Below, in pieces: positions 5,055 to 41,886 of a DNA stretch of 42,181 nt. The position numbers and the translations under genes were made by a program. Position 1 is the first letter of the stretch. The number at the start of each line of letters is the position of its first letter. Origin of the DNA: Nitrosomonadales bacterium (GTDB lineage: Bacteria > Pseudomonadota > Gammaproteobacteria > Burkholderiales > Gallionellaceae); NCBI GenBank assembly GCA_016218445.1, contig JACREC010000115.1, forward strand, positions 1 through 42,181, given 5' to 3'. Under the pieces are notes generated by a model. That model worked only from the letters and a program-made list of their open reading frames with translations. It searched no databases and was not told where the DNA came from.

Positions 5055-5061
5055 ATACTTC

Positions 5062-5144
5062 GTCATTCCCGCGCAGGCGGTAATCCAGTGGGTCTACCAA
5101 AAAGCATTTTTGAATTGCTGGATTCCCGCCTGCGCGGGAATGAC
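5062..5144. repeat. Palindromic repeat (GTCATTCCCGCGCAGGCGG...CCGCCTGCGCGGGAATGAC), intergenic copy
   Basis: Arms gtcattcccgcgcaggcggtaatccag / ctggattcccgcctgcgcgggaatgac; between convergent genes, so it may also act as a terminator. Confidence 0.9.
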
Positions 5145-5146
5145 GG

Positions 5147-5992
5147 CTAATCAAATACCACATCGCCCTCCACCACCTTGTCGCCGAGCCTGATGTTCTT
5201 GAAGTCGAACAGGCTGCCGTCGAGCAGGTGCGACGGCGCGACGTTCTGCATCGCGGTGAAGATGGTCTGGCTGCGCCCCGGATATTGCAGTTCCCAGGCA
5301 GCGAGCATTTCCTTGATGTTCTGCCGCTGCATGTTTTCCTGCGAGCCGCACAGGTTGCAGGGGATGATGGGGAATTCCATGCCGCGCGCAAAACGCGCGA
5401 TGTCTTTCTCTGCGCAGTAGGCCAGCGGGCGGATGACGATGTGGTCGCCCTTGTCGGTGACCAGCTTGGGCGGCATGGCCTTGAGCTTGCCGCCAAAGAA
5501 CATGTTCAAAAACAGCGTCTCGATCATGTCGTCGCGGTGGTGCCCCAGGGCGATCTTGTTTGCGCCCAGTTCCTGCGCCACGCGGTAGATGATGCCACGG
5601 CGCAGGCGCGAGCACAGCGAGCAGGTGGTTTTGCCCTCGGGGATTTTTTCCTTGACGATGGAATAGGTGTCCTGCGCCTCAATGCGGTATTCCACGCCGA
5701 TGGATTTGAAATATTCCGGCAGGACGTGCTCGGGGAAACCCGGCTGCTTCTGGTCCAGATTCATGGCGACGATGCGGAAATCAATCGGCGCGCGCTTTTG
5801 CAGGGCACGCAGGATTTCCAGCAGGGTGTAGGAATCCTTGCCGCCGGACAGGCATACCATCACGCTGTCGCCATCCTCGATCATGTTGAAATCGGCGATG
5901 GCCCTGCCGACCTGGTGTTCCAGCCGCCCCTTGAGGCGGTTGAAGTTGGTGGAGTGGCGGTCGAAGTGGATGGGTTGAATAACGTCGTTCAT
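5147..5992 (-). CDS. ttcA: tRNA 2-thiocytidine(32) synthetase TtcA
   Basis: [19 protein letters not shown]-loop, [10 protein letters not shown] and CNLCGSQ cysteine motifs. Confidence 0.95.
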
Positions 5993-11664: not shown

Positions 11665-11802
11665 CGGGAAATGCACGAAATCAACTGGGGGAAGGATAAC
11701 ATACCGGTATGGTGACACACCTCATGCATAACAGCGCAGAGTGGTAATCCGGATAAATCCGGTACCCGTATCCGCCCGGCGGAGAAACCCATCGGGCATT
11801 TA

Positions 11803-11944
11803 GGGCGCCTCTAAAAATTCGGAGTTCGCCCAAATGCAAGGCGCGAGGAAATTTTCGCAGCGCCGCATATGCATGATATGTAAGCAAGAAAATTTCTTGA
11901 GCAACGCAGCAGTTGGGATGAAATCTGGATTTTTAGAGGTGCCC
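11803..11944. repeat. MITE-like repeat A, uninterrupted copy, terminal inverted repeat GGGCRCCTCTAAAAAT
   Basis: gggcgcctctaaaaat ... atttttagaggtgccc (1 mismatch in 16); core caaggcgcgagg...gatatgtaagcaagaaaatttcttgagcaacgcag shared with 37494-37694. Confidence 0.85.
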
Positions 11945-12033
11945 TTTATTTTGAGCCATACCCCACCCACCAGGTTACTGACTCCACGATTCCACGGCAA
12001 CGGCATGAATAATCACTGTGGCATAATCCAGTC

Positions 12034-14373: not shown

Positions 14374-14610
14374 GAAACCACGGAAGACACGGAAAAAAGC
14401 GAGGCTTATCGAAGAGTTGGTGGGTGATGTGCGCTCACCCATTGGGTGCATGCCGCTTCTTGTCGAATTCATTGTTTTTATTCCGTGTTATCCGTGTTAT
14501 CCGTGTTATCCGTGTTATCCGTGTTATCCGTGTTATCCGTGTTATCCGTGTTATCCGTGTTATCCGTGTTATCCGTGTTATCCGTGTTATCCGTGTCTTC
14601 CGTGGTTAAC
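14374..14610. repeat. 9-bp tandem array (TCCGTGTTA x12, 14482-14589) bracketed by an inverted repeat
   Basis: aaccacggaagacacggaa near 14375 and tccgtgtcttccgtggtt at 14590-14607 are reverse complements flanking the array. Confidence 0.93.
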
Positions 14611-20809: not shown

Positions 20810-20943
20810 CTCTCAAAACTTAAATTTCGTTTCCCTACTGTGTTGCGCTCAAAAAATCTTGCTTACATATCTGTTCCATACGCTGCGCTGCGATTTTTTT
20901 CGCGCGCCTTGTATGGCTTGGAAATTTAAATTTTTAGAGGCAC
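20810..20943. repeat. MITE-like repeat A, diverged copy in opposite orientation
   Basis: gagcacctctcaaaacttaaattt ... aaatttaaatttttagaggcactc; reverse complement contains caaggcgcgcgaaa...gatatgtaagcaagattttttgagcgcaacacag. Confidence 0.75.
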
Positions 20944-22313: not shown

Positions 22314-22373
22314 TAACCAGCGACTTGGCTGGCGTTGTTTGCCAGCCTAGTCGAATGGCTAGTAGTTTTATCA
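22314..22373 (+). repeat. 60-bp CA-flanked hairpin element, copy 1
   Basis: taaccagcgacttggctggcgttgtttgccagcctagtcgaatggctagtagttttatca; preceded by CA, ends in CA. Confidence 0.9.
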
Positions 22374-23197: not shown

Positions 23198-25972
23198 ATG
23201 AAGACACTGCTGCTGGTTGACGGCTCATCTTACCTGTACCGCGCTTTCCATGCACTGCCCGATTTGCGCAGCCCTCAGAATGAGCCGACCGGTGCGATCT
23301 ACGGCGTGCTCAACATGCTGCGCAAGCTGCGCGCCGATTTCCCGGCGGATTATAGCGCTTGCGTGTTTGACGCAAAAGGCAAAACTTTCCGCGAGGACTG
23401 GTATCCGGAATACAAGGCGCATCGCCCGCCCATGCCGGAAGACCTCGTCGCGCAGATCGCGCCGCTGCACGAGGCCATCGCCGCCTTCGGCTGGAACATC
23501 CTGATGGTGGACGGTGTGGAGGCCGACGACGTGATCGGCACGCTGGCGCAGCAAGCCGCCGCTGAAGGCGCGCGTTGCATCATCTCCACCGGCGACAAGG
23601 ACCTCACGCAACTGGTGAATGAACATGTGCTGTGGGTGAATACCATGAGCGAGGAAAAGCTGGGCGAGGCAGGCGTGCTCGCCAAGTTTGGCGTGCCGCC
23701 GGAACGCATCGTGGATTACCTGACGCTGGTCGGCGATACGGTGGACAACGTGCCGGGCGTGACCAAGGTTGGCCCCAAGACCGCCGTGAAATGGCTCAAC
23801 CAATACGGCACGTTGGACAACCTGCTGGCGCACGCTGACGAAGTCGGCGGCGTGGTCGGCGAGAATTTACGCGCTGCCGTGGATTGGTTGCCGCAAGGCC
23901 GCAGGCTGGTCACCGTGAAATGCGATGTCCCGCTGCCCAAACGTTACGATGAATTGACTGCACCGCCACAGGACACGGAACAACTGCGCGCGCTGCTGCA
24001 GCGGTTCGGGTTTAAATCTTGGTTGCGCGAGTTGGATAGCGGAAAGAATTCCAACTCCGCTCCCTCCCCCTTGCAGGGGGAGGACTGGGGCGGGGGTAAA
24101 GCACGCACAGATTCTACCCCCTCCCTAACCCTCCCCCTGCAAATGGGAGGGGATGGTAGGCCGGTTTTTTCCTCTGGACATTACGAAACCATTCTCACCG
24201 AAGCACAACTCGACGGCTGGCTGGGGAAAATCCTGCAGGCCGATCTGGTGTGTGTGGACACCGAGACCACGGGCCTCGACGTGATGAATGCACAACTGGT
24301 CGGTATTTCTTTTTCCATAGAGCCGCACCACGCCGCCTACCTGCCACTGGCGCACCACTATCCCGGCGCGCCGGATCATCTGAAGCGCGAGCACGCGCTG
24401 CAAAAACTCAAGCCCTGGCTGGAAAGCGCGCAGCACAAAAAGCTCGGGCAGAACCTCAAATACGACCAGCACATCTTTGCCAACCACGGCATCACGCTTG
24501 CGGGTATTCATGAGGATACGCTGCTGCAATCCTACGTGCTGGAAAGCCACAGGCCGCACGACATGGATAACCTTGCGCTGCGCCATCTCGGCGTGAAAAC
24601 CATCAGCTATACCGAGGTGGTAGGCAAGGGCGCCAAACAGATTTGTTTCGATCAGGTGGATCTCGATACCGCCACGCGCTATGCGGCGGAAGACGCCGAC
24701 ATCACGCTGCAACTGCACCAAGCCTTGTTGCCGCAATTGCGCGACAAACTCGCCGAGGTCTATCGCAACATCGAGATGCCGGTGCGGCAGGTACTGTACG
24801 TCATGGAGCGCAACGGCGTGCTGATAGACGGCGCCAAGCTGGCGGCGCAGAGCCGTGAACTGGGCGAAAGAATACTCGCCATCGAGGCGCAGGCATTCGA
24901 GGCAGCGGGACAGCCATTCAACCTCAATTCGCCCAAGCAGATACAGGAAATTCTGTTCGACAAGCTGCAACTGCCGGTGAAGAAAAAAACGCCCAGCGGC
25001 ACGCCCTCCACCGACGAGGAGGTGTTGCAGGAACTGGCGCTGGATTACCCGCTGCCGAAAATCCTGCTCGAACATCGCGGCATGGCAAAGCTCAAATCCA
25101 CCTACACCGACAAGCTGCCGCAAATGGTGGACCGCAAAACCGGGCGCGCGCACACCAGCTACTCACAGGCGGTGGCAGTGACGGGCAGGCTAGCCTCCAG
25201 CGACCCCAACCTGCAGAACATTCCGATACGCACTCCGGAAGGCCGCCGCATCCGCGAAGCCTTCATCGCACCCGCAGGCAGCCGCATCGTGTCGGCGGAC
25301 TATTCGCAGATCGAACTGCGCATCATGGCGCACCTCTCCGGCGACGAAGGACTGCTGCGCGCGTTCGCCAACAACGAGGACATCCACCGCGCCACTGCCG
25401 CCGAAGTGTTCGGCGTTGCGCCCGATGAGGTGAGTTCAGAGCAGCGCCGCTACGCCAAGGTCATCAACTTCGGCCTGATCTACGGCATGTCCGCTTTCGG
25501 CCTGGCAAGCCAGCTCAACATCGAACGCAGCGCCGCGCAGCAATACATAGACCTCTACTTCGCGCGCTACCCCGGCGTAAAGAACTACATGGACAGCACG
25601 CGCGAACAGGCCAGGCGGCAAGGCTACGTTGAGACCGTGTTTGGCCGCAGGTTATGGCTGCCTGAGATCAACGCCAGCAACGGTGCAAAACGCCAAGGCG
25701 CCGAGCGCGCCGCCATCAACGCGCCGATGCAGGGTACAGCGGCAGACCTGATCAAGCTGGCAATGATTGCCGTGCAGAACTGGATAGAAAAAGAAAAGCT
25801 GCACACCCGCCTCGTCATGCAGGTGCATGACGAACTCGTGCTCGAAGTGCCGCAGGCGGAACTGCATCACGTGAAGGAAAAACTGCGCGATCTCATGTGC
25901 CATGTCGCCGAACTGAAAGTGCCGCTGGAAGTAGGGCTGGGAGAAGGCAGCAACTGGGACGAGGCGCATTAG
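23198..25972 (+). CDS. polA: DNA polymerase I
   Basis: MKTLLLVDGSSYLYRAFHALPDLRSPQNEPTGAIYGVLNML...DYSQIELRIMAHLSGDEGLL...MQVHDELVLEVP; TAG stop. Confidence 0.97.
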   Translation: MKTLLLVDGSSYLYRAFHALPDLRSPQNEPTGAIYGVLNMLRKLRADFPADYSACVFDAKGKTFREDWYPEYKAHRPPMPEDLVAQIAPLHEAIAAFGWNILMVDGVEADDVIGTLAQQAAAEGARCIISTGDKDLTQLVNEHVLWVNTMSEEKLGEAGVLAKFGVPPERIVDYLTLVGDTVDNVPGVTKVGPKTAVKWLNQYGTLDNLLAHADEVGGVVGENLRAAVDWLPQGRRLVTVKCDVPLPKRYDELTAPPQDTEQLRALLQRFGFKSWLRELDSGKNSNSAPSPLQGEDWGGGKARTDSTPSLTLPLQMGGDGRPVFSSGHYETILTEAQLDGWLGKILQADLVCVDTETTGLDVMNAQLVGISFSIEPHHAAYLPLAHHYPGAPDHLKREHALQKLKPWLESAQHKKLGQNLKYDQHIFANHGITLAGIHEDTLLQSYVLESHRPHDMDNLALRHLGVKTISYTEVVGKGAKQICFDQVDLDTATRYAAEDADITLQLHQALLPQLRDKLAEVYRNIEMPVRQVLYVMERNGVLIDGAKLAAQSRELGERILAIEAQAFEAAGQPFNLNSPKQIQEILFDKLQLPVKKKTPSGTPSTDEEVLQELALDYPLPKILLEHRGMAKLKSTYTDKLPQMVDRKTGRAHTSYSQAVAVTGRLASSDPNLQNIPIRTPEGRRIREAFIAPAGSRIVSADYSQIELRIMAHLSGDEGLLRAFANNEDIHRATAAEVFGVAPDEVSSEQRRYAKVINFGLIYGMSAFGLASQLNIERSAAQQYIDLYFARYPGVKNYMDSTREQARRQGYVETVFGRRLWLPEINASNGAKRQGAERAAINAPMQGTAADLIKLAMIAVQNWIEKEKLHTRLVMQVHDELVLEVPQAELHHVKEKLRDLMCHVAELKVPLEVGLGEGSNWDEAH
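24055..24160. repeat. Repeat-derived in-frame insertion in polA, exonuclease linker region
   Basis: ccctcccccttgcagggggaggactggggcggggg...taccccctccctaaccctccccctgcaaatgggagggg; encodes APSPLQGEDWGGGKARTDSTPSLTLPLQMGGDG; same family as 2005-2101. Confidence 0.85.
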
Positions 25973-26066
25973 TTTTTTGAATACCGTGACATCTTTACTT
26001 TTCCATGCAGCAAATAGCCCATATAAACGTATGGCTTATTAGCCAGCAAAAGCGTATTATTCCCAC

Positions 26067-26357
26067 ATGCGTAAAGCCAATTTTGACTGGGACAAAAAGA
26101 AGGATTTGGAAAATTTCGCCAGGCACGGCGTATCCTTCGTTGAAGCGCAATACGCATTTACAGACCCGAAGCGCATCATTGCCGAAGATCTCGCGCACAG
26201 CGAAAAGGAGCAGCGGTTTTTCTGCTTCGGGATAGTGGAGGGCGGAGTGATGACAGTCCGGTTCACTTATCGAGCGGGTGTCATTCGCATTATCGGTGCG
26301 GGATATTGGCGCAAAGGAAAGAAAATTTATGAGCAAGAAAATCAAATACACGGATGA
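26067..26357 (+). CDS. brnT: BrnT family toxin
   Basis: MRKANFDWDKKKDLENFARHGVSFVEAQYAFTDPKRIIAEDLAHSEKEQRFFCFGIVEGGVMTVRFTYRAGVIRIIGAGYWRKGKKIYEQ. Confidence 0.92.
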   Translation: MRKANFDWDKKKDLENFARHGVSFVEAQYAFTDPKRIIAEDLAHSEKEQRFFCFGIVEGGVMTVRFTYRAGVIRIIGAGYWRKGKKIYEQENQIHG

Positions 26358-26607
26358 ACCCATCGGGCCGGTAAAGGTAGTGGCGGATTTTCTGCCGCCG
26401 CCAGAACAACTGGCTTTCAAGGAAGAATCCACCAAAGTAACGCTGTCGTTAAGCAAGGCTAGCATTGAATTCTTCAAGAAAGAAGCCGCGCGTCAGAATA
26501 CTCAATACCAACGCATGATCCGCCGCCTGCTGGATGCTTACGCGCAGACCTATGCAGAAACTTCGCCACAGAAGGTTGGCGGGCATACGAAATCAGCACG
26601 TCGCTGA
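26329..26607 (+). CDS. brnA: BrnA-type antitoxin
   Basis: MSKKIKYTDEPIGPVKVVADFLPPPEQLAFKEESTKVTLSLSKASIEFFKKEAARQNTQYQRMIRRLLDAYAQ; overlaps brnT 3' end. Confidence 0.85.
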   Translation: MSKKIKYTDEPIGPVKVVADFLPPPEQLAFKEESTKVTLSLSKASIEFFKKEAARQNTQYQRMIRRLLDAYAQTYAETSPQKVGGHTKSARR

Positions 26608-26625: not shown

Positions 26626-26894
26626 CAAACGCACCACCATCAACGCGCCCATGCAAGGCACGGCCGGATCTGATCAAACTGACAATGATCGCCGTGCAGA
26701 ACTGGCTGGAGCGCGAACACATGCACACCAGCCTCATCATGCAAGTGCACGATGAACTTGTGCTCGAAGTACCGCAGGAGGAACTGCCTCACGTGAAAGA
26801 AAAATTGCGCGATCTCATGTGCCATGTCGCCGAACTGAAAGTGCCGCTGGAGGTGGGGCTGGGGGAAGGCGGGAACTGGGATGATGCGCATTAA
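26626..26894 (+). pseudogene. Second, truncated copy of the polA 3' end
   Basis: MIAVQNWLEREHMHTSLIMQVHDELVLEVPQEELPHVKEKLRDLMCHVAELKVPLEVGLGEGGNWDDAH is identical at 59/69 residues to the intact polA tail; about 2 nt missing near 26664 relative to polA. Confidence 0.95.
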
Positions 26895-26900
26895 TGTTTT

Positions 26901-37474: not shown

Positions 37475-37493
37475 TTCCATGGATTGGCCTATG

Positions 37494-37694
37494 GGGATCT
37501 CTAAAAATTCAGAGTTCGCCCAAATGCAAGGCGCGGACAAAATTTCGCCGCGCCGCATATGTATTGATATGTTAGCAAGAAATTTTTTACGCAACGCAGC
37601 ATAACCAGCCACTTGGTTGCCGTTTTTTGGCAACTTAGTGGAATGGCGAGTAGTTCCACCAGTTGGGATGAAATGTGAATTTTTAGAGGTTCCC
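37494..37694. repeat. MITE-like repeat A, copy interrupted by the 60-bp element
   Basis: gggatctctaaaaattc ... gaatttttagaggttccc; core as in 11803-11944 with a 60-bp insertion. Confidence 0.92.
37602..37661 (+). repeat. 60-bp CA-flanked hairpin element, copy 2 (nested in repeat A)
   Basis: taaccagccacttggttgccgttttttggcaacttagtggaatggcgagtagttccacca. Confidence 0.95.
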
Positions 37695-37696
37695 AT

Positions 37697-38371
37697 ATGA
37701 CAATGATGAAACAATTTCTGGCGATAACCTCCCGCACAATGAACAAAAACAGGCAGCAGCGCATACCCTGCCGGACGCTGTGTATCTTGGCGTCCTCCAT
37801 GCTGCTGGCCGGCTGCACCGCCCTGCCGGCCCCGAAACCGGAGAGTCCCCACATCTACCTGCTCGATGCGCAACCGGCCGCCAAAGCAGCGCAGGTAAAA
37901 CGCGACCTGGTGCTGGCAGTCGCCATGCCGCGCGCGCGGCCTGGCTTTGACACGCCGCAGATGGCTTACCTGCGGCAGCCCCATGAACTGGAATACTTTG
38001 CGGCCAACCGCTGGGCAGATGCTCCGCCGCACATGCTGTGGCCGCTGCTGGTACAGGCATTGGAGCAAACGGGAGGATTCCGCGCCATCGTGCAGACGCC
38101 GGGCGCGATTCCCGCCGATGTCCGGCTCGATGTTGAACTGATACGCCTGCAGCAGGACTTTGGGACAAGGCCGAGCCGGGTACAACTCACGTTGCGGGCA
38201 CAGCTGAGCGATGTGCGCAGCAAACGGGTGCTCGCCGTAAAGCTGTTCGACGAGATGCAAAATGCCGCCAGTGACGACGCATATGGCGGAGTCACCGCAG
38301 CGAACCAGATAGTACAACGTGTGTTGAACCATCTGACCGATTTTTGCCTCGACGAGTCAGTCAGCCAATAG
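37697..38371 (+). CDS. ABC-type transport auxiliary lipoprotein
   Basis: Lipobox LLAGC; YLLDAQPAAKAAQVKRDLVLAVAMPRARPGFDTPQMAYLRQPHELEYFAANRWADAPPHML. Confidence 0.88.
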   Translation: MTMMKQFLAITSRTMNKNRQQRIPCRTLCILASSMLLAGCTALPAPKPESPHIYLLDAQPAAKAAQVKRDLVLAVAMPRARPGFDTPQMAYLRQPHELEYFAANRWADAPPHMLWPLLVQALEQTGGFRAIVQTPGAIPADVRLDVELIRLQQDFGTRPSRVQLTLRAQLSDVRSKRVLAVKLFDEMQNAASDDAYGGVTAANQIVQRVLNHLTDFCLDESVSQ

Positions 38372-39955: not shown

Positions 39956-39956
39956 C

Positions 39957-40167
39957 AGGGTGTTTAAAAACTACTGATGGAACAACTAGCCATCTGACTA
40001 GGCTGCCAAAAGACAACAGCCAAGTCATTGGTTATGCGCTCGGCATAACTGCGTTGCTCAAGGGTTCAAAATGCGGGGTCGCGTAGCGATAAACTCCATG
40101 TAAATTCCGCTTTTTCACCCTTTCGCGCCTTGTTCTGCCATCGCTCGCTACGTTTTTCAACACCCTG
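39957..40167. repeat. MITE-like repeat B (terminal CAGGGTGTTKAAAAAC inverted repeat), interrupted by the 60-bp element
   Basis: cagggtgtttaaaaac ... gtttttcaacaccctg; core contains gcgttgctcaa and cgcgccttg shared with repeat A. Confidence 0.85.
39975..40034 (-). repeat. 60-bp CA-flanked hairpin element, copy 3 (nested in repeat B)
   Basis: Reverse complement taaccaatgacttggctgttgtcttttggcagcctagtcagatggctagttgttccatca. Confidence 0.92.
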
Positions 40168-40184
40168 CTAATGCCTTAACTTAA

Positions 40185-41718: not shown

Positions 41719-41886
41719 TCGTCATTCCGGCGCATAGCCAGCGACTTTGCTGGCGTTTTTTGCCAGCTTAGTCGAGTGGCTAGTAGTTTCATCAGGCCGG
41801 AATCCAGCAAATTAAACAACGCCCGCGAAGCGGGACAACAGATCGGTCTTGTCCGCTGCGCGAAATTATTGACGGACTGGATTCCG
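41719..41886. repeat. GTCATTCCGGCGCAGGCCGGAATCCAG-type palindromic repeat, interrupted by the 60-bp element and truncated at its right arm
   Basis: cgtcattccggcgca / ggccggaatccagc ... ctggattccggcc, then an unrelated repeat. Confidence 0.85.
41735..41794 (+). repeat. 60-bp CA-flanked hairpin element, copy 4 (nested in a palindromic repeat)
   Basis: tagccagcgactttgctggcgttttttgccagcttagtcgagtggctagtagtttcatca. Confidence 0.95.

Follow-up and report, generated by a model that had tools for sequence, protein, structure and literature searches.

How tiny palindromic repeats spread in bacteria is an open question, and most families lack clean empty sites or defined ends. The SDRs of cyanobacteria are approximately 21–27 nt long. 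Elements of the IS200/IS605 type usually show a leading/lagging-strand bias. Y2 (IS91/Helitron-like) enzymes are associated with a hairpin lying 10–12 nt from the 3′ end and leave no duplication on insertion. Recombinases of the IS110/IS1111-type group leave an identical core dinucleotide on either side of the insertion and require a target match of greater length; some members of the group insert in REP palindromes. IS200/IS605 elements transpose as single strands, and TnpA-REP proteins (RAYTs) recognise single-stranded hairpins, imperfect in one group, and cut at CT, in one case at CA, located 5′ or 3′ of the hairpin (PMC8266576). REPs are also known to serve as targets of insertion sequences (PMC1525189).

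Here we analyse a 60-nt element that carries no gene. The window, the whole 42,181-nt stretch of DNA that was studied, is contig C89 of a Gallionellaceae MAG of 1.92 Mb that is 85% complete. The element is real, and the initial annotation correctly recorded four copies of it in the window, with coordinates and strands as listed below. Each copy is exactly 60 bp long, is preceded by CA and ends in CA.

22314 to 22373, plus strand: copy 1 (hairpin 22314–22361, tail 22362–22373)
37602 to 37661, plus strand: copy 2 (hairpin 37602–37649, tail 37650–37661), which sits in a MITE-like repeat
39975 to 40034, minus strand: copy 3 (hairpin from 40034 down to 39987, tail from 39986 down to 39975)
41735 to 41794, plus strand: copy 4 (hairpin 41735–41782, tail 41783–41794), in the loop of a CGTCATTCCGGCGCA^GGCCGGAATCCAG palindrome

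The element resembles a REP or a cyanobacterial SDR, but it lacks the GTAG and CGTC tags and the linkage to RAYT genes. It shares with the REP/REPIN (RAYT) systems the form of a small, multi-copy, imperfect hairpin with internal mismatches that is apparently recognised as a single strand; RAYTs are reported to cleave at CT or CA near the hairpin, and RAYT genes are present in many carriers of the element. It differs from REPs and REPINs in its unit of exactly 60 nt with a 12-nt 3′ tail, in its precise insertion at A^G with empty sites, and in that its copies do not flank RAYT genes, which carry other REPs. Unlike GTAG REPs, it lacks a GTAG tetranucleotide in front of the stem: host DNA (..A|) directly precedes it, and a GTNG motif follows the stem on the 3′ side. 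CGTC-tagged REPs are likewise small hairpins without a dedicated transposase, with a short unpaired 3′ tail that often ends in CCA (PMC3733652), but the element has no CGTC tag, its left flanks are A-rich host DNA, and CGTC-type palindromes are its targets (copy 4). As far as Elhai et al. (2008) is cited in PMC4390886, cyanobacterial SDR5 is a similarly tiny module that is precisely inserted at a fixed position of another short repeat and has no known mobiliser, whereas the element is 60 nt long and strongly structured, belongs to another host group and has an A^G target. The 42-nt palindromic GC42 clusters of yeast mitochondria merge with each other and encode no enzyme (PMC4478555), but their setting is an organelle. 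Like miniature derivatives of IS200/IS605, the element probably moves as a single strand, and it inserts next to a short fixed sequence, on the 3′ side, with no duplication of the target. However, it is a single hairpin from base 1; neither a pair of end hairpins nor a left or right guide was identified, nor, among the fetched loci and their neighbours, a parental IS. The likeness to IS91/Helitron lies in the hairpin approximately 10–12 nt from the 3′ end, the lack of target duplication and the fixed flanking bases, whereas the element differs from IS110/IS1111 in not having the same core dinucleotide at both ends. The literature on Gallionella repeats yielded nothing relevant, and no account of the element family turned up in the open-licence papers searched.

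The element is composed of a 48-nt imperfect hairpin starting at base 1 (pair 1/48) and a conserved 12-nt tail, GTNGTTYCATCA. All four copies in the window fold as single-stranded DNA far better than shuffled sequences (z −3.6 to −6.3), which agrees with the imperfect hairpin described initially, and in copy 4 the stem pairs 1–6/43–48 fold too. Four base pairs were said to covary (8/40, 9/39, 16/32 and 19/29), and all of them were confirmed in larger alignments; the covariation alignments contained 127 and 18 sequences. The covarying stem pairs are 4–6/43–45, 8–12/36–40 and 14–20/28–34. In 125 distinct rows, aligned by fitting to the model, 97.4% of the cells pair and two-sided changes occur at 11 pairs; an ungapped alignment of 39 copies gives the same covariation. 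The covariation score is 0.420, compared with 0.164 after shuffling, and none of 500 shuffles reached it. When relatives from other families were added, pair 1/48 was TA or CG and pair 4/45 was CG or GC. Pair 3/46 is AT or GC in the wider alignment and an A/C mismatch in Gallionellaceae. Because the relatives from other families show these outer pairs, the stem begins at base 1, which defines the 48-nt hairpin and the 12-nt tail. The extension of the stem to the first base had previously been overlooked. T13 is opposite T35 in 171 of 171 unique copies, a mismatch that is invariant in Gallionellaceae, and the hairpin also contains a 1×2 internal loop. The unique copies start with TAACC, except for one that starts with TAGCC.

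A scan with a degenerate pattern, allowing up to three mismatches, found 42 copies in the assembly from which the window derives, and the reversed control gave 0. A covariance model built from 39 copies (R1) had 104 matches in the same 1.92-Mb MAG. Among the best 71 of the 104 matches, 63 were exactly 60 nt long and the other eight were 59 or 61, as expected from the fixed length proposed earlier; partial and nested matches score lower. Rfam gave 0 matches in the window above the gathering score and chance-level ones only below the threshold. Matches of R1 were present in 30 of 60 relatives, all of them within the family of the window (30 of 36), with copy numbers from 1 to more than 90 per genome. 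In G121 and G161, the apparent recent amplification of the element turned out to be mostly that of larger repeats containing it. A degenerate pattern identified at least 118 stretches in GTDB genomes, and nearly all of the matches listed are labelled Gallionella, Gallionellaceae, Gallionellales, Sideroxydans, Ferrigenium or Nitrosomonadales. When the order was sampled more widely, the element also appeared in several other families (f15, f21, f22, f32, f35, f43, f45 and f50); these copies are diverged but still mostly 60 nt long, for example TAAGCAGGGACTTGG..GCTTAGTAGTTTCATCA. Two contigs from IMG/VR carry one copy each, L228 and L229 (IMGVR_UViG_3300037222_000062, positions 5610–5655), and inspection of L229 by eye suggests a phage tail region, with ORFs that resemble tape-measure genes. 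A plasmid search gave no match.

Comparison of filled and empty sites shows that the element is mobile and has been inserted repeatedly in iron-oxidising Gallionella-type bacteria and some of their relatives, and also into its own copies. For 106 of 173 copies, an uninterrupted relative matches the two flanks when these are joined; 102 of these 106 junctions are clean, with no duplication or loss of target sequence. One such pair lies within the window: the repeat that is filled by copy 2 differs from its empty paralogue by exactly 60 bp. The window also contains an uninterrupted palindrome of the type entered by copy 4.

11800 to 11950, plus strand: empty-site paralogue of the repeat that hosts copy 2, with the insertion point at 11911^11912 (GCA^GTT)
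37483 to 37704, plus strand: repeat that hosts copy 2, with inverted ends (arms 37483–37524 and 37663–37704)
5061 to 5088, plus strand: uninterrupted CGTC-tagged palindrome (empty-site type of copy 4)

G002, G003, G001 and G007 have no copy 1 at the orthologous intergenic position; the site is otherwise rearranged in these sisters, so this is an absence rather than a clean empty site. Copy 3 is within a 222-bp block (39956–40177) that is missing at the orthologous site in G002 and G003. The initial annotation had proposed a structure-recognised, non-autonomous mobile element and a comparison of its filled and empty sites; the clean junctions without duplication, the strong covariation, the nesting and the absence of copies at orthologous sites of sisters bear this out. 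The 222-bp block is itself a dispersed repeat, with a paralogue, for example, at G003:C178:876-1072. The MITE-like repeat occurs at 11802–11945, 20877–20941 and 37483–37704 of the window, has the inverted ends CTCTAAAAATTC..GATTTTTAGAGG, and recurrently hosts the element at GCAACGCAGCA^GTTGGGATG in several genomes.

The target of insertion is A^G. In 107 non-redundant sites, A occupies position −1 in 93% and G directly follows the element in 85%, whereas C is present at position −2 in just 47%. The fixed CA target dinucleotide suggested earlier thus holds for the copies in the window but not for the family. Of 191 copies, 164 have CA at their right end, while the left flank is CA in 75, TA in 50, GA in 44 and others in the remainder; clean empty sites also have the left flanks GG, CG and GT. 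A constant CA on the right against a variable flank on the left means that CA is no target duplication. The two ends share no core, which disfavours recombinases that depend on a core dinucleotide. The element prefers repeats: 61% of copies are in sequence that is found uninterrupted elsewhere, compared with 26% of nearby and 19% of distant control A|G sites taken from the same loci as the copies. The hosts include CGTC-type palindromes (copy 4), CCCTCCCCCTTGCA^GGGGGAGGG repeats and CTTCGACA^GGCTCAG repeats. Palindromes with a stem of at least 6 bp are formed by the flanks of 8 of the 107 sites, compared with 1.4 expected and a maximum of 6 in 500 shuffles. The targeting of palindrome loops by these elements, class I, is real but modest and concerns a minority of sites. 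Self-insertion at CTA^GTCG and GGCTA^GTAG produces nested arrays with 48-bp spacing. Mutual information between element and target reflected mostly subfamilies and nesting.

A second class of elements has the hairpin in common with class I but carries the tail TGCARAGC and is 56 nt long (55–57). Class II sits mostly at T^T in the loops of palindromes, including GTAG REPs and class I loops; judged by eye, most of the 17 contexts listed look palindromic or are existing elements.

L070, L120, L122, L127, L143, L144, L174, L196 and others, and G096 in L318: class II relatives

Two other sequences were found in association with the element. A second, unrelated hairpin repeat, GCACCCGCAAGAGGTACACCGTGGTTGTAAGGGGCTGAAGCCCCAACAACACACGCAGG, has inserted into or next to the 60-bp element, or the repeats that host it, in L080, L071, L085 and L088 (G000 C48, C43, C57). 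The sequence TATATAAACCCATTAATTACG, which is joined to two copies (L227; G000:C68 = L075) and was considered as a partner, belongs to a transposon that was assigned as IS630-like by eye from its translated end and is apparently inserted at the TA of the tail.

The mispairs in the stem distinguish the two DNA strands. Read on the top strand, there are 109 G-T and 14 A-C mispairs (57 and 12 without pair 14/34), and eight of ten informative pairs lean to G-T; the copies are not independent, so a binomial p-value for this excess is only indicative. A constraint on double-stranded DNA would not produce such an asymmetry. It is the structure of one strand, as a single strand, that is conserved. The excess of G-T would be expected from selection for a top-strand hairpin, either of single-stranded DNA or of RNA, or from deamination of C on an exposed top strand. 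No bias towards leading- or lagging-strand orientation was seen by local GC skew, which is weak here.

The search for a mobiliser covered whole genomes for Y1 genes and the fetched loci with their neighbours for IS ends. The fetched loci and neighbours contained no parental IS that combines these ends with a Y1 transposase, and no autonomous partner in the shape of a linked or longer form, an element-specific gene upstream or downstream, or a recurrent transposase. The genes that recurred near copies were apparent housekeeping clusters only. Where copies have the flank on one side in common, the host repeats account for it. The Pfam profile Y1_Tnp (PF01797) found nothing in the MAG of the window. 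This profile under-detects local RAYTs, and the impression that several carriers have no Y1 enzymes was partly an artefact of sensitivity, as A3, a profile of 15 local RAYTs, finds genes in G007, G023, G030 and others. Full-length genes matching the RAYT profile are present in 18 of 22 genomes with strong copies and in 6 of the 14 remaining genomes (Fisher p = 0.029, with no correction for phylogeny). The carriers G005, G025 and G028 and the MAG of the window have no full-length RAYT, and the latter has weak partial matches only. The RAYT flanks in these genomes are other, GTAG-tagged REPs. Application of R1 to 38 RAYT-type loci gave two matches of approximately 53 nt, and the match in L280 is inside another REP. 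Because the RAYT flanks carry other REPs and a related hairpin lies beside only two, the element is not the cognate REP of these RAYTs. Local RAYTs could still act on it in trans. The mover is not an enzyme whose gene was found flanked by the element.

Based on the junctions, the covariation and the strand asymmetry, a mechanism of movement can be proposed, in which we infer both the enzyme and its mode of action. On balance, we lean towards a new REP-like element that has no gene and travels as single-stranded DNA with the help of a trans-acting HUH transposase. Having folded the top strand as single-stranded DNA, the transposase would cut it after the A at either end (..A|TAACC, ..ATCA|G) and join the excised strand to an A^G site in single-stranded target DNA. 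Among HUH enzymes we favour one of the Y1 type, a relative of IS200/IS605 TnpA or of TnpA-REP (RAYT). Cleavage by TnpA-REP at CT or CA suits a hairpin that is cut after CA. The IS200/IS605 or RAYT route suggested by the initial annotation stands as the best guess, since there is no duplication, the G-T/A-C asymmetry is present and TnpA-REP cleavage is compatible with it (PMC8266576), but the cognate transposase was not found. The HUH model is supported by the clean junctions, the A^G target, the covariation, the G-T asymmetry, the targeting of repeats, the palindromes in flanks, the nesting and the association with RAYT genes. It is opposed by the lack of an autonomous partner among the fetched loci and their neighbours, the RAYTs that are accompanied by other REPs, the carriers that lack a full-length RAYT, and the absence of a strand bias by local GC skew. 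Class II, moreover, combines the same hairpin with a T^T target, which a guide located 5′ of the shared hairpin would not predict.

The excess of G-T fits an RNA hairpin equally well. A 60-nt hairpin RNA could be copied into the target by a trans-acting reverse transcriptase, in the manner of a minimal bacterial SINE; the one-strand tolerance of G-T (G-U), the fixed 3′ end ..CA and the lack of target duplication fit this route. However, no recurrent reverse transcriptase was found near copies, no series of 5′-truncated copies was noticed, and the targets are A^G sites in repeats, and we consider the RNA route unlikely. We give a similarly low probability to a possible Y2 HUH transposase (IS91/ISCR or Helitron-like) working by a rolling circle, with the hairpin and 12-nt tail as the 3′ terminus: the hairpin 12 nt from the 3′ end and the insertion after A without duplication match it, but a structured 5′ end and a total length of 60 nt would be atypical of such an element. 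Somewhat less doubtful, although still tentative, is an undescribed route, whether through a novel HUH lineage that has no copies linked to it or through RNA, by which a bare 60-nt hairpin enters A^G with a preference for repeats and at least two tail classes follow different target rules (class I at A^G; class II, with the tail TGCARAGC, mostly at T^T in hairpin loops). The preference for repeats and, modestly, for palindromes would also suit a passenger of an IS110/IS1111-type DEDD recombinase, but this is very unlikely, given that the left flank varies (CA, TA, GA, GG, CG, GT) while the right end is CA, and that the targets share only A^G. The least probable reading, to which we attach hardly any weight, is that the copies are functional hairpins that do not move (attenuators, sRNAs or protein-binding sites) and owe their spread to descent and recombination rather than to their own insertion. 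The structure is indeed conserved across genera, and some copies were amplified within larger repeats. Nevertheless, the exact 60-bp presence or absence in unrelated repeats, with the 102 clean junctions, the nesting and the absence in sister species speak against static hairpins, and the empty sites refute this reading as the main explanation; it could apply to single copies.

The element family offers base-exact ends, approximately 100 pairs of filled and empty sites, two tail classes that differ in target, and a strand signature. Owing to the exact ends, the paired sites and the strand signature, the cutting rules can be read from the sequence and are testable in vitro with a 60-nt oligonucleotide. 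The element is a ready natural substrate with which to test TnpA-REP-type or other HUH enzymes.

The window contains two further repeats. The 3′ end of a polA-like gene is duplicated downstream (25745–25978 and 26667–26900, 86% identity), with a small ORF between the duplicated ends (26278–26607). At 14482–14604, the 9-bp unit TCCGTGTTA forms a tandem array.
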